Shown piece after piece: positions 28,842 through 33,638 of a stretch of DNA of 64,000 nucleotides; positions within the stretch are counted from its first letter, which is position 1, and each line of letters opens with the position of its first letter. A program made the translations under genes and the position numbers. The DNA is taken from NCBI RefSeq assembly GCF_000817735.3, contig NZ_JTJC03000001.1, positions 567,710 through 631,709 of the forward strand. The letters run 5' to 3'. This DNA is from Scytonema millei VB511283 (lineage in GTDB: Bacteria; Cyanobacteriota; Cyanobacteriia; Cyanobacteriales; Chroococcidiopsidaceae). The notes under the pieces were generated by a model. It did no database searches and was not told where the DNA came from. It saw nothing but the letters and a program-made list of their open reading frames with translations.

Positions 28842-30050
28842 ATGGAATTTATATTTACACAAGCTGAGTCTATTAGTGCTGGGTTGAAACTCATAAGATA
28901 TTTGAAAACCTGTGTAGGCAAGATTTGTCTGTGTAATGGTGACTTTAACCGCCTGTTTAGGCAGGTAGTTTTAGTTGGCGCGATCGCATTTTTGAGTCTA
29001 CTATCGTTCGCAACTCCAGCACTAGCGGCAAAAGATCGATTATTTCTCGACCTCTCGCTGGATTATCTAGGAGAATATCAACTGCCAACCACGAATATTT
29101 CTGACGCACCATTAGCAGGTTTTTCAGCAATTACTTATGACAAACGACGCGATCGCTTTTATGCTATTTCTGGCAATGAAATACTGACTCTCAAGGTAAC
29201 TTTTAACCCCGATATTGAAGATATAAAAATTCAAAATATCGAGCTTGAATCTGTAGCTTCACTTCTCGATAAAGATGGCAAGCTGTATGATTCAAATACC
29301 TTTTTTGCTAAGGGAGTTGCTCTAACACCACAGCAGACTGTATATATTTCCGGTTCTCAGATAAGTGGAGAGCGATCGCTTCCTTTTATCCGAGAATTCG
29401 CTCTAAAAACTGGACAGATGCTGCAAAGCCTGACTCTTCCCAAGCGATATATTCCTGAGATCGTACAGGAAAAAGGGCAAAATCAGAATACTCAAACTAT
29501 TCAAGACGATATAACATTTGCAGCTTTAGCTTTTAACGCGACTGGTACTGTTCCAACAAGTGGAGAACCAGTGAATTTATTTACTGCTACTGAGTCAACA
29601 CTAGTACAAGACCGAGATGTGTCTAATTCTAGACCTAATTCTAAACAGGGTAAAGCTCGGCTACTACATTATTTAATTGGCTACGGGACACCAATGCTAC
29701 TAGCAGAATATGCTTATCCTCTTGATGCCGCACTTGAAGAGTTATTATCAGTTGAAGGCGTTCATTTTCTCAGTTTAGAACTACAGCCGGAAACAAAAAC
29801 TGGAAAGATTTATCAAATTGTTACTAGCGGCGCAACCGATACATCAAAAGTTGAAAGTCTAAAAGGTAAAATTAAAGGAGTACGAGAAATTAAGAAAAAG
29901 TTAGTTTTAGACTTGCAAGAGGTGGGAGTTGCATTAGGAAATCCACTAGGGATGACTTTTGGTTGTCGCTTAGCTGATGGCACGAAAAGTTTAATAGTTA
30001 TGAGTAATGACCAACAAAAACCCGAGTTTCTGCTTTTTCGCTTGCGCTAA
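28842..30050 (+). CDS. secreted esterase-like/phytase-like protein
   Basis: This gene encodes 402 aa from the ATG at 28842. A GTG at 28818 is an alternative, and neither has a clear ribosome site. A hydrophobic segment ends in ATPALAAKD at about residues 40-65, which is a signal peptide with an unusually long n-region. The body follows the phytase-like beta-propeller family (esterase-like activity of phytase): GFSAITYDKRRDRFYAISG, FFAKGVALTPQQTVYISG, FTATESTL, and GMTFGCRLADGTKSLIVMSN near the end. Expected to be periplasmic or secreted; hydrolytic activity is only inferred. No operon partner. Confidence 0.8.
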   Translation: MEFIFTQAESISAGLKLIRYLKTCVGKICLCNGDFNRLFRQVVLVGAIAFLSLLSFATPALAAKDRLFLDLSLDYLGEYQLPTTNISDAPLAGFSAITYDKRRDRFYAISGNEILTLKVTFNPDIEDIKIQNIELESVASLLDKDGKLYDSNTFFAKGVALTPQQTVYISGSQISGERSLPFIREFALKTGQMLQSLTLPKRYIPEIVQEKGQNQNTQTIQDDITFAALAFNATGTVPTSGEPVNLFTATESTLVQDRDVSNSRPNSKQGKARLLHYLIGYGTPMLLAEYAYPLDAALEELLSVEGVHFLSLELQPETKTGKIYQIVTSGATDTSKVESLKGKIKGVREIKKKLVLDLQEVGVALGNPLGMTFGCRLADGTKSLIVMSNDQQKPEFLLFRLR

Positions 30051-30099
30051 GATTGATAGCGTATTTCTCCGTTCGCATTCAAATACTTGTTAGGCTGCG

Positions 30100-30564
30100 C
30101 TAAGGACGATCGTTTGGATTCTCTACAACTAATCCCTCGCTTAAAGCTGCAACGTTTAACTCTTTATCTGCCGATACAAAAATTATAGAAGGCAAGTTAT
30201 TGGCAATACAAAGCTCATTTACTGCACAACCTGCTGCTAACTGAATTGCATCGTAGCCTCGTAAACCATGTGTTTCAGCAAATTTCATGCCAGCATCAAT
30301 TATGCTGTCTGCAATCTCAATGATTTGATACTCTGTCTGCAAATCGCTCTTCACTTGACTGCATACTGCTTTTGCATCGGTAGCACTGATACTTCCGCCA
30401 CGCGCCCGTCGTGTAACCGCAGCAACAATTTCAACTCCTGAAATGGCTGCAACGAAAACTTCATTGTTGAAAACAGGATTAAATAACTCTAAAATCCATG
30501 CGGAACCGATTTCACTGATATATCGTTTCACCAAAGCACTGCTATCTAGAAAATGAACTGCCAT
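30100..30564 (-). CDS. vapC: PIN-domain ribonuclease toxin (VapC-like)
   Basis: This gene encodes 154 aa, ATG at 30564. The PIN fold has its acidic residues: D6 (FLDSSALVKRYI), the glutamate of ISGVEIVAA, the aspartate of GYDAIQLAAG, and a C-terminal ISADKELN-like aspartate (SADKELNVAAL). It is a Mg2+-dependent RNase toxin. The upstream gene ends one base before its start, so the two form one operon in the usual antitoxin-toxin order. It lies at the left edge of a HIP1-free island, consistent with transfer. Confidence 0.88.
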   Translation of the reverse strand: MAVHFLDSSALVKRYISEIGSAWILELFNPVFNNEVFVAAISGVEIVAAVTRRARGGSISATDAKAVCSQVKSDLQTEYQIIEIADSIIDAGMKFAETHGLRGYDAIQLAAGCAVNELCIANNLPSIIFVSADKELNVAALSEGLVVENPNDRP

Positions 30565-30825
30565 CTAGCGGCGTTCCTCAACGATCGTATTAGAAATTGG
30601 TTCACCCTTAACTTGGATAAGTTTCCGCTCTTTCAATTGGTAAGAACTTTGCTTAATTTGTCGTACTAATCCAGAATTCACCAATGCTTGATGGAATGCA
30701 GCTTGTTTCGCTGCTGCTTCATTATCGATCAGACGATTTTGAACGGCGCGATGAAGCTGTTGCAGTTCTTCTAGATTGAGAAACTGGAGTTTATCAAGCA
30801 TTTGGCTCAGAATTGTTTGAGACAT
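30565..30825 (-). CDS. putative antitoxin partner of the PIN toxin
   Basis: This gene encodes 86 aa, ATG at 30825. It is helical and charged (LDKLQFLNLEELQQLHRAVQ, then FHQALVNSGLVRQIKQ), with no recognisable AbrB, Phd or ribbon-helix-helix domain. The antitoxin role is inferred from position: it ends directly at the start codon of the PIN toxin, as antitoxin genes do. Similar small proteins beside PIN genes occur in cyanobacteria, but I cannot name the family. Confidence 0.6.
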   Translation of the reverse strand: MSQTILSQMLDKLQFLNLEELQQLHRAVQNRLIDNEAAAKQAAFHQALVNSGLVRQIKQSSYQLKERKLIQVKGEPISNTIVEERR

Positions 30826-31023
30826 TTAGTATTCATCAGGGACTTAGAATTACTCTGCTATCTATTTTACACGGCTGAGTATTGGAGTCTTAAACACACA
30901 ACGCCCAAAAGTACCTTTACAAATAGCAAAAAGCTGCTCAACGGATTGGGTTTCAGCGGTGGTAGGAGTTTTCGAGTCATCACTAGAGTATTGAAACCAT
31001 CCGCTACAAGCCCTGGTTAAGCT

Positions 31024-31842
31024 TTACTGCGCCAAAATAGTTTTAGCTTTTTGACAAAATTCAGAAATCGGCATATCCAAACCACCATTTTCTAATAACT
31101 CAGTTAGCTTTTCTTGTGACTGCATAGTATGAAATGTTCCTTTTCCGATCTGTCTAGTTCTAGTTGACATTCCCGATCGTATATTTGGCCATTCAGAGGC
31201 AAAAAGTTCCGTACATTCATTAACTATTTGGTCAAAGGATGACTGAAGAGTTATTGGTTCACGAAACTCAATCTCTTTCTGTACAATAATATCTCCAGTA
31301 TCAATCCCTTTATCGATGTAATGGATTGACACTCCTTTTTTCGTACCATTAATCCATGACCAGAGATTAGGATTGGGACCACGATTTTGAGGCAAGTATC
31401 CACCATGTATATTTATGCAAGGAACGATTTTAATAATATCTTGTGAAAGAATTCTTCCATAACCGAAACAGATAATGTAATCGATCTTATATTTTTGAAT
31501 GAATGAAGGAGTGATTTTGTCATCACGATCTGAAAAGCAAATAATATCGTCACCAAGAGCAATCACAGAATCTTTGATCTTTTCAGGAAAAGCACTTAAG
31601 ATTAATACATGCCACATTTTTGCATAATTTACATCAGGAATACCTGTTATCTTATTTATCATTCTTTTAATTACCTTCTGCTTGTTTGCATTTTCTACAA
31701 ACTTTAAAAATTTTGAATTTTGATACCTTCGATTTTCTTTCCACACAATTCTCGGAATTGGAGCAGACAAAACCTCGAAAAAATCAAGTTCTAATTTTTC
31801 AATCTCATCAAGGGTAGATTCCCCGTGGCTTGTCACGTTCAT
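31024..31842 (-). CDS. formyltransferase-domain protein of four-gene cassette
   Basis: This gene encodes 272 aa from the ATG at 31842 (a GTG stands two codons earlier). The ATG overlaps the upstream stop codon in an ATGA. Residues about 75-225 are a formyltransferase domain like the N-10-formyl-THF enzymes (methionyl-tRNA or sugar formyltransferases). The Asn-His-Asp triad is intact in CINIHGGYLPQNRGPNP and KGIDTGDIIVQKEI. It should move a formyl group from 10-formyl-THF to an amine, with unknown acceptor. The first about 70 residues and last about 50 are not recognised. It is the last gene of a compact minus-strand unit with three small unfamiliar genes. Confidence 0.8.
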   Translation of the reverse strand: MNVTSHGESTLDEIEKLELDFFEVLSAPIPRIVWKENRRYQNSKFLKFVENANKQKVIKRMINKITGIPDVNYAKMWHVLILSAFPEKIKDSVIALGDDIICFSDRDDKITPSFIQKYKIDYIICFGYGRILSQDIIKIVPCINIHGGYLPQNRGPNPNLWSWINGTKKGVSIHYIDKGIDTGDIIVQKEIEFREPITLQSSFDQIVNECTELFASEWPNIRSGMSTRTRQIGKGTFHTMQSQEKLTELLENGGLDMPISEFCQKAKTILAQ

Positions 31843-32270
31843 GAACACAGCGGGAGTGCGTCCCGAAGGGCAAATTCCGTAATGCCCCGTCCGCTTGCGG
31901 CGGGGATAGGAATTTGAGCGCCCCGCAACTTTTTACTAGGAAGCATATGACTATACTTTGCAAATGAGTATGCCGATGACATATGAAGAAATAATAGTCG
32001 CGTAAAAAGACGTTCTTTATCTGTTATCGGACTTTCTTTTAGATTAACTCTTAAATCAAAAATTCGTTTACATATACATAAATCATCCCGATCGCTTAAG
32101 CATAATTTCCACAGATCTCGATGAGACTTGATGATTTCTTGATAATTCGCAATTTTCTGACTTTTAATGCTTCGTATTGTCGAGTAAAAATTCAATGTTA
32201 GAGCAATTGAAGAAACAAATAATCCGCCAATAATACCAATAGTTTTTGCATCTTCAGATGTGATTTGCAA
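31839..32270 (-). CDS. small single-pass membrane protein of four-gene cassette
   Basis: This gene encodes 143 aa from a TTG at 32270, eight bases after GAGG, the best ribosome site nearby. One hydrophobic helix (about 10-30: IGIIGGLFVSSIALTLNFYS) is followed by a basic turn, a helix with HRDLWKLCLSDRDD, and a helical LLFLHMSSAYSFAKY segment. This reminds me of actinobacterial small membrane proteins such as DUF6082, but the link is weak. The last about 28 residues (from RGAQIPIP) are encoded by a GC-rich hairpin region unlike the rest and may be an acquired tail. Gap to the upstream gene 11 bp, overlap with the downstream gene 4 bp. Confidence 0.6.
   Translation of the reverse strand: MQITSEDAKTIGIIGGLFVSSIALTLNFYSTIRSIKSQKIANYQEIIKSHRDLWKLCLSDRDDLCICKRIFDLRVNLKESPITDKERLFTRLLFLHMSSAYSFAKYSHMLPSKKLRGAQIPIPAASGRGITEFALRDALPLCS
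31885..31905. repeat. GC-rich hairpin at the end of the membrane protein gene
   Basis: CCCCG-T-CCGC-TT-GCGG-CGGGG forms a nine-base-pair stem with one bulge inside a GC-rich stretch (about 31850-31925) set in AT-rich surroundings. It encodes the C-terminal tail of the membrane protein. Confidence 0.65.
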
Positions 32271-32281
32271 CTGACATACCT

Positions 32282-32863
32282 CTACTCTAATGGATAGTTA
32301 AGATAACAAACTGCATCTGCTTTGATAATAGAAAATAGCATGAGCAGCGTGTCAATATCTGATTTTTCAGTTGTCATCCATCCACCTCTAATTTCTCCAG
32401 TTTCATCATAATCATGTACGAAAGCCATACAACGATCAAAAACCATGAAATCATGCAAAGCCAATTCATCAAATATACTCGATCTTTCTAAGAAATAAAT
32501 ACGCTCTCCATAGCTAGCATTAAACCTGTAGCATTCCAACTCCCATCGAAGATAATCAGTGATCGGTTTAACAATCGGTCTACATCTTATAAAGTCTACA
32601 TTTCGTCTTGATAATGATTGGTATAGATCAACATCTTCACTCCGAGCTTCAGGAAGTATCTGAAGCGCCTTATAGAAATCTCCTGCTTCAAGTGCCTCAA
32701 AGCTGGGATTTCCTGGCTCTCGATAGTATTGACGAGTTTCTAGTTTCAGAACTTGTCCTTTTACTGCATTCCATGCATCACCGAACTTGCTGAAAAATCG
32801 GGACGCTCCTGAGTAATATTGCAAGTGGTTTATGATATTAGAAGTATTTTGAAGTCTATTCAT
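32282..32863 (-). CDS. DUF6879-like protein of four-gene cassette
   Basis: This gene encodes 193 aa from the ATG at 32863. A GTG at 32884 would add seven residues, and neither has a strong ribosome site; the ATG overlaps the upstream stop region by eight bases, as expected for coupled genes. The sequence shows RRNVDFIRCRPIVKPITDYL, RWELECYRFNASYGERIYFL, and a C-terminal FMVFDRCMAFVHDYDETGEI. This matches my memory of DUF6879, a domain common in actinobacteria next to regulatory or small conserved genes. Function unknown. Its presence in a cyanobacterium and in this cassette suggests transfer. Confidence 0.65.
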   Translation of the reverse strand: MNRLQNTSNIINHLQYYSGASRFFSKFGDAWNAVKGQVLKLETRQYYREPGNPSFEALEAGDFYKALQILPEARSEDVDLYQSLSRRNVDFIRCRPIVKPITDYLRWELECYRFNASYGERIYFLERSSIFDELALHDFMVFDRCMAFVHDYDETGEIRGGWMTTEKSDIDTLLMLFSIIKADAVCYLNYPLE

Positions 32864-33095
32864 TGGGAATATCTGATTTCGCACGAATTAGAGTTTTTCT
32901 TGGAATGACAACAATTTCTTCATCATGTCCTCTGCTTGCAGTTTTCGGCAGCAAAGGTTCCAATTCATGAGTTTTTCTAGCACCAATAATAGCAAATGAA
33001 CCGTCTTCTAGTTCCCATATATCTGGACAGCCTGCGGCTCCACCTGTCATCTCTCCATTTTCATGGGGATCTGAACCTATTCTTTTTTTAAACAT
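32856..33095 (-). CDS. small conserved protein, GCPDIWELEDG type
   Basis: This gene encodes 79 aa, ATG at 33095 eight bases after AAGGAG. The first part FKKRIGSDPHENGEMTGGAA is polar. Then comes a conserved-looking core, GCPDIWELEDGSFAIIGARK, and a basic end (EIVVIPRKTLIRAKSDIP). Similar small proteins with a C-x-D-[IL]-[WF]-E-L-[ED]-D-G core stand upstream of DUF6879 genes in actinobacteria as I recall them. It is the first gene of the four-gene unit. It may bind a partner or serve as a precursor or substrate of the formyltransferase, but this is speculative. Confidence 0.6.
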   Translation of the reverse strand: MFKKRIGSDPHENGEMTGGAAGCPDIWELEDGSFAIIGARKTHELEPLLPKTASRGHDEEIVVIPRKTLIRAKSDIPNE

Positions 33096-33638
33096 ATACT
33101 ACTCCTTCTCAAAAGTTTTGTTTATAGTCAATTCACCATACTTAACTATTTATTAAGTAAATTCCTCGCAGTCTAATATAGCAATTCAAGCGATCGGACT
33201 ACGAATGTGCAGTCTAACTCAGAAATTTAGCTGATTAGACTACAGATTTGCTTACTTACTACCAGAATTTGGATGATAATACTGAACAACTTCAGCCTAA
33301 TTATCCTTGTGTAGGTCTTATCCTATACATATACCCTTCAGTAAGACTAAGAGACTGAATTTTTTATCATCTCTTCACTATGTGTATATTTTCTCTATAT
33401 ATAATTTAAATAAAAGCAAAAGTCGAAAGCATTAGCCTGTTTTCTCTAAAAATCGAGCCTCGCGATCGCCTCTCCACATCTCTCTAAAAATATCATGCGA
33501 TCGCCTTCATATATTCTTCGTAGATATTGTGCTTGCTTAATACTCAAAAACTGAGACACAATTAGCTATGAAAATCTCTACTGACGCTTGAGCGTGACTT
33601 TTGCTACCAGTGTATCGACTGAAGCTAAAACAACAGCT
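33096..33638. other. AT-rich intergenic region upstream of the cassette
   Basis: Non-coding by all readings. It holds the operator-like palindrome at 33168-33241, a TATAAAC box on the minus strand near 33120-33126 that could be the -10 of the cassette, and the first HIP1 site for 4 kb at 33462-33469. The right part (33300-33420) is very AT-rich with no recognised feature. Confidence 0.6.
33168..33241. promoter_or_regulatory. direct and inverted GCAGTCTAA repeats upstream of cassette
   Basis: GCAGTCTAA occurs at 33168-33176 and 33209-33217. The second copy begins an imperfect palindrome, AGTCTAACTCAG and CTGATTAGACT (33211-33241), with an 8-base centre. It lies about 75-145 bp before the first cassette gene and could be an operator or a terminator arm. 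There is no T-run. Confidence 0.45.

Follow-up and report, generated by a model that had tools for sequence, protein, structure and literature searches.

A small CPDIWELEDG protein with alternative partners and a repeat-split membrane-protein gene in a probably acquired island of Scytonema millei

Introduction

Does a compact minus-strand gene block in Scytonema millei VB511283 encode one four-gene system with a formyltransferase (FT) as its enzyme, or genes of different history that have come to lie together? The block occupies positions 31024-33095 of the 64,000-nucleotide stretch of DNA that was analysed as a whole, here called the window. A reading made from the sequence alone had described it as four packed genes for a small protein with the motif CPDIWELEDG, a DUF6879-like protein, a one-helix membrane protein and an FT, and had suggested formylation of a peptide or aminoacyl product, a conflict system or membrane-anchored signalling as possible roles. 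The ORF scan of the window gives these reading frames:

32856-33095, minus strand: ORF1, small CPDIWELEDG protein of 79 aa
32282-32884, minus strand: ORF2, DUF6879 protein, 200 aa from GTG 32884, with an ATG start at 32863
31839-32270, minus strand: ORF3 as first called
31024-31848, minus strand: ORF4 as first called, with an ATG at 31842

If the ATG starts are chosen from the ORF list, the 8-bp and 4-bp overlaps and the 11-bp gap of the sequence-only reading are reproduced, the 8-bp overlap with ORF1 depending on ATG 32863 as the start of ORF2. All four ORFs, the overlaps and the gap are there as described; what separates ORF3 from ORF4, however, was made by an inserted 140-bp repeat.

Results

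The block lies in an island that two congeners lack

On both sides of the island, as far as 30057 and again from 33638 on, the sequence is about 85-96% identical to that of the congeners G001 and G002. Between the joined flanks, G002 has about 33 bp and G001 about 0.68 kb of other DNA. The segment that both lack contains the following features in addition to the four ORFs:

30058-33637, no strand assigned: acquired island of about 3.58 kb, absent from both congeners examined
30100-30564, minus strand: PIN-domain-like protein (PF01850, 21.9 bits, just below the cut-off of 23.6)
30565-30825, minus strand: small gene, a putative antitoxin by position only, ending one base before the PIN-like start and with no family above cut-off
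33204-33248, upstream of the small CPDIWELEDG gene: inverted repeat and candidate operator (14-nt arms, 86% complementary, 17-nt spacer)

The lower GC content and the lack of HIP1 sites that had been noted by eye hold when counted: the island has 37.6% GC versus 44.6% in the window, and no HIP1 site occurs from 29373 to 33461, versus a window average of 1.42 per kb. The transfer that had been proposed on these grounds is further supported by the empty site in the two congeners and by the distribution of the genes, as among 386 sampled cyanobacteria the small gene is found in this genome only, and DUF6879 scores above its cut-off only here, with a sub-threshold match in one other genome (G110). 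Absence from the congeners, taken alone, would fit the loss of an old cyanobacterial locus as well as a gain; however, with the small gene missing from the 385 other sampled cyanobacteria, DUF6879 above cut-off in none of them, and the low GC content and lack of HIP1 sites, we regard loss of an old locus in two congeners as barely credible. For the small protein, DUF6879 and the FT alike, viral contigs yielded no confirmed relative, and a phage origin is, therefore, unsupported here.

A dispersed repeat splits the membrane-protein gene

A profile from the membrane proteins of seven loci matches ORF3 and also the N-terminal part (the first quarter) of ORF4. Because the two matches cover consecutive parts of the model, ORF3 and the N-terminus of ORF4 derive from one gene, cut between model positions 99 and 102:

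31938-32270, minus strand: 5' part of the membrane-protein gene, the ORF3 match to model positions 15-99, with weak resemblance to DUF6082
31797-31938, minus strand: dispersed repeat of 140-141 bp (31798-31937 when taken as 140 bp) inside the membrane-protein gene
31678-31797, minus strand: 3' part of the membrane-protein gene, in frame with the FT, model positions 102-147, motif PIPRIVW...FLKFVE

The repeat has copies of 100% identity at three other places in the same genome (C17:124.3k, C3:448.3k and C1:801.9k), all with unrelated flanks; further copies are one, also of 100% identity, in congener G001 and an 88% partial copy (L013). The ORF3 stop codon (31839-31841), the ORF4 ATG (31842) and their 4-bp overlap all lie within the repeat. 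In other words, the ORF3/ORF4 boundary is an artefact, in which the repeat supplies both the stop of one reading frame and the start of the next. The one-helix protein of the sequence-only reading does belong to a single-pass family; what does not stand is its status as a separate third gene, as the gene is cut in two and its remainder is in ORF4. The resemblance of the family to DUF6082 (PF19560) is weak, with two of eight aligned membrane-protein sequences matching (best E 0.0015).

In relatives, as read by eye, the SxxY region and PIPR are 28 residues apart, versus 218 nt in the window. This difference fits a net insertion of 134 bp, which suggests that 6 or 7 of the shared 140 bases are target sequence. 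As 140 and 134 are both 2 mod 3, the two gene halves end up in one frame. A remnant of an IS200/IS605 element and a part of a group II intron were both considered for the repeat; as Rfam puts the intron next to the 88% partial copy and not within the element, the repeat is left unclassified. At that copy (L013 4093-5897, G000:C3), a group II intron with an Rfam RF00029 domain and a reverse-transcriptase-like ORF is seen directly beside, and perhaps inside, the partial copy. Separately, the genome has the hairpin CCCCGCCGCAAGCGGACGGGG of the repeat on its own at several further places (L007, L008 and L009, around 1501).

Because its membrane partner is truncated, the module in the window is probably not fully working. 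No stop codon separates the membrane-protein tail from the FT, and the two could, in principle, have been a natural fusion in which the FT sat on the inner face of the membrane under the control of the small protein and DUF6879, until the repeat split it. The open frame from the membrane-protein C-terminus to the FT and the repeat length of 140, which keeps both halves in that frame, speak for such a fusion. However, the membrane proteins of the relatives that were read end within a few residues of an FVxFIE motif, and two genes joined by a small indel would fit a TAA in another frame and the Shine-Dalgarno-like AGAAGG in front of ATG 31662; we therefore consider the fusion rather improbable.

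The small protein keeps two kinds of partner across phyla

A scan of GTDB species genomes gave 333 relatives of the small protein. The best 80 of them, 49-62% identical, come from Verrucomicrobiota, Saprospiraceae and actinobacteria (mostly Streptomyces). No family in Pfam, NCBIfam, PADLOC or PHROG contains the protein, and in the last three libraries the DUF6879 and membrane proteins, too, have none above cut-off. Its structure model has a pLDDT of 83; a fold search with this model gave no significant match among solved folds, and the search for solved relatives gave one weak match at chance level (E 0.076).

In Verrucomicrobiota and Saprospiraceae, the partner is the membrane protein. Of 18 loci, 17 have a member of the membrane-protein family near the small gene, in 15 cases immediately downstream of it, and the remaining locus runs into a contig end. 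Upstream of the small gene, 15 of the 18 have an XRE-like gene, three of these genes being weak matches. DUF6879 was not found in 17 genomes of these two groups. By eye, five of the XRE-small-membrane modules (L024, L027, L028, L060 and L068) are near recurrent mobile-element-like genes that look like replication-relaxation and coupling-protein genes. In the window, no XRE gene is found upstream of the small gene, 33096-33638 having no ORF of at least 50 aa in the ORF list, and Pfam gives no match to an XRE regulator or a DUF397 protein within the cassette.

In actinobacteria, the partner is DUF6879. ORF2 matches this family (PF21806) over residues 33-197 with 100.7 bits versus a cut-off of 23.9. 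Plasmids of actinobacteria have the small gene, or a short gene in its place, immediately before DUF6879 or overlapping with it. Streptomyces-group genomes often carry several copies of DUF6879, and a small protein of a related profile precedes 11 of the 20 DUF6879 stretches examined; the window-type and Streptomyces-group small-protein profiles align with an hhalign probability of 78.5 (E 1.7e-5). The likeness of the first two genes to actinobacterial proteins, which the sequence-only reading had pointed out, is thereby confirmed. Solved structures include no detectable relative of DUF6879, and its single-sequence structure prediction is uninformative (pLDDT 34). In the literature library searched, neither DUF6879 nor DUF6082 is named by any paper, and the same holds for the motif string and for PseJ together with formyltransferase.

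On the Kitasatospora cathayae plasmid NZ_CP115452.1 (L018 6227-9271), DUF6879 runs into an NB-ARC/TPR-like protein of 1014 aa, its C-terminal part being read by eye, and the gene overlaps that of a CPDIWQL small protein. Judging from this fusion, DUF6879 might be a sensor or effector domain in a protein of STAND type. In a Streptomyces locus (L167, around 573-1109), DUF6879 is preceded by a protein that by eye looks like DUF397 instead of the usual small protein, an arrangement that could be a bridge to XRE-DUF397 loci.

The small gene also occurs by itself. In 62 actinobacterial chromosomal loci, nearly all from Streptomyces, neither the membrane gene nor DUF6879 is present within about 6 kb, and shared neighbours, in an analysis that included spurious reading frames, hint at a conserved place. 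A gene for which no operon partner was recognised in these loci is ill-suited to an obligate toxin partner. This bears on whether the module is a toxin-antitoxin or anti-phage system, in which the membrane protein (and DUF6879) would be toxins, the small protein the antitoxin and the XRE protein an autoregulator. Such a system would be in keeping with the compact operons with a divergent XRE gene, the neighbours of mobile-element type, the PIN pair within the same island, the fusion of DUF6879 to an NB-ARC/TPR-like protein in Kitasatospora, and the proposal of XRE-DUF397 pairs as toxin-antitoxin systems (PMC6262351). By contrast, no PADLOC model matches, the small gene stands alone in most Streptomyces loci and is not found in viral contigs, and XRE-DUF397 pairs are regulators of antibiotic production in the same study (PMC6262351). 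On balance, we consider a toxin-antitoxin or anti-phage module possible, if less than likely.

The window is the only locus we have seen that joins the membrane-protein and DUF6879 partners of the small protein. The small gene recurs in two separate pairs, small plus membrane and small plus DUF6879, and the FT occurs in none of those loci; a second locus with the same four genes in the same order was not found among the small-gene loci examined. These observations go against the four-gene FT system of the sequence-only reading. The presence of the membrane protein and DUF6879 in a single operon points to alternative or cooperative partnerships with the same small protein.

The formyltransferase resembles PseJ

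ORF4 carries a Formyl_trans_N domain (PF00551; 72.9 bits versus a cut-off of 26.1), and the Asn-His-Asp triad is intact (INIH...GIDTGD), as had been read from the sequence. The best solved match is PseJ (E 2e-35). Residue 1 of PseJ (6ci4) falls on residue 78 of ORF4 in the alignment, which gives the FT proper a length of about 197 aa:

31024-31617, minus strand: FT proper, PseJ-like, about 197 aa, with an alternative start ATG 31662 behind AGAAGG

Judged from pairwise identities, the FT is 35% identical to PseJ over 194 columns, 37% to the FT of cyanobacterium G146 and 44% over 150 residues to that of G057. Two of the three closest cyanobacterial FTs (G057 and G103) are, from a reading of the genes by eye, among pseudaminate-pathway genes. 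The third, that of G146 (L134 3331-7847, G146:C38), has, also by eye, two probable Nif11-type leader peptides and a C39-peptidase ABC exporter in its neighbourhood, and the locus could be a RiPP cluster that includes formylation.

Most likely, the FT is a distant PseJ-type enzyme that would N-formylate an amino-sugar nucleotide with 10-formyl-tetrahydrofolate. A sugar enzyme of a nearby O-antigen cluster had been named as the finding that would undo the four-gene proposal. The relationship to PseJ agrees with the sugar enzyme, but no sugar cluster adjoins the FT: by eye, no Pse genes are recognised in the window, and a PseI-family pseudaminate synthase gave no match in the genome itself at E 1e-5, versus matches in 8 of 14 control genomes. 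Being intact, the FT may still act on a sugar.

The related small-gene loci lack an FT, and a close FT (E<=1e-18) was found in 0 of 24 genomes with the small gene, in a search that had no positive control. The FT would then be a passenger or late addition outside the module, because it is absent from the related loci. A four-gene system in which the effector step is formylation of the small protein, another peptide or an aminoacyl product by the FT is very unlikely. The intact triad of the FT, its place downstream in the same direction, and the leader peptides and exporter near its closest cyanobacterial relative (L134) would be compatible with such a role; against it, the related small-gene loci have no FT, the FT sequence falls with those of PseJ-type sugar enzymes, and the apparent coupling of ORF3 to ORF4 is repeat-made.

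Discussion

Based on these data, we consider it fairly probable that the block is a horizontally acquired mosaic operon in decay, made up of a regulatory or conflict module of a small protein and its partners, and a stray FT. In this model, foreign DNA would have brought in the small CPDIWELEDG gene with both partners in one operon. Elsewhere, the small protein has alternative partners, either the membrane protein with a divergent XRE gene or DUF6879. The small protein would act as a regulatory or antitoxin-like subunit that binds its membrane or DUF6879 partner and holds it back, and the XRE protein, where present, would control expression. After arrival, the 140-bp repeat would have jumped into the membrane-protein gene, giving rise to its truncation and to the apparent ORF3/ORF4 junction.

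A broader version, which we hold to be decidedly unlikely, is that of a cross-phylum module in which an XRE-controlled small protein restrains interchangeable effectors and in which, here, a membrane effector was fused to the FT and later broken by the repeat. If so, a membrane-anchored formylation enzyme under small-protein control would have existed before the repeat inserted. The case also shows how a mobile repeat can turn one gene into two false, neatly overlapping genes.

Among known systems, PseJ (PDB 6ci4 and 6ci2) resembles the FT in that nearly the full FT length aligns and the motifs NxH, PNLWS and GxDTGxI are common to both. However, the two are 35% identical, whereas FTs from real pseudaminate clusters are about 57% identical to PseJ; in addition, the window FT has WSWI where WSFL stands in the motif, and its own genome has no detectable pseudaminate synthase. 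The BldB/WhiJ/AbaA and XRE-DUF397 loci of Streptomyces (PMC10294661, PMC6262351) likewise have a small protein beside an XRE regulator and further genes, and the Streptomyces XRE plus small-protein loci with published studies have a regulatory role (PMC10294661, PMC6262351). The window differs from them in having no DUF397 or XRE, and they serve here solely as an analogy to how the CPDIWELEDG protein may work.

The actinobacterial pairs of small protein and DUF6879, some with a WhiJ-like XRE and an ATP-binding gene, share gene order and overlap with the window, whereas the window has neither an XRE nor an ATP-binding gene, has the membrane gene next and carries the CPDIWELEDG subtype of the small protein. 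The XRE-CPDIWELEDG-membrane module of Verrucomicrobiota and Saprospiraceae, of which we found no description in the literature, likewise has a gene of this membrane-protein family behind the small gene. By contrast, the window has no XRE, DUF6879 lies in between, the membrane gene is interrupted and an FT is added. The small protein family stands outside the four libraries searched, yet keeps the same partners across phyla. The copy in the window is mainly a lesson in repeat-made false genes, while the recurring partnerships of the small protein with the membrane protein and with DUF6879 deserve study in their own right.
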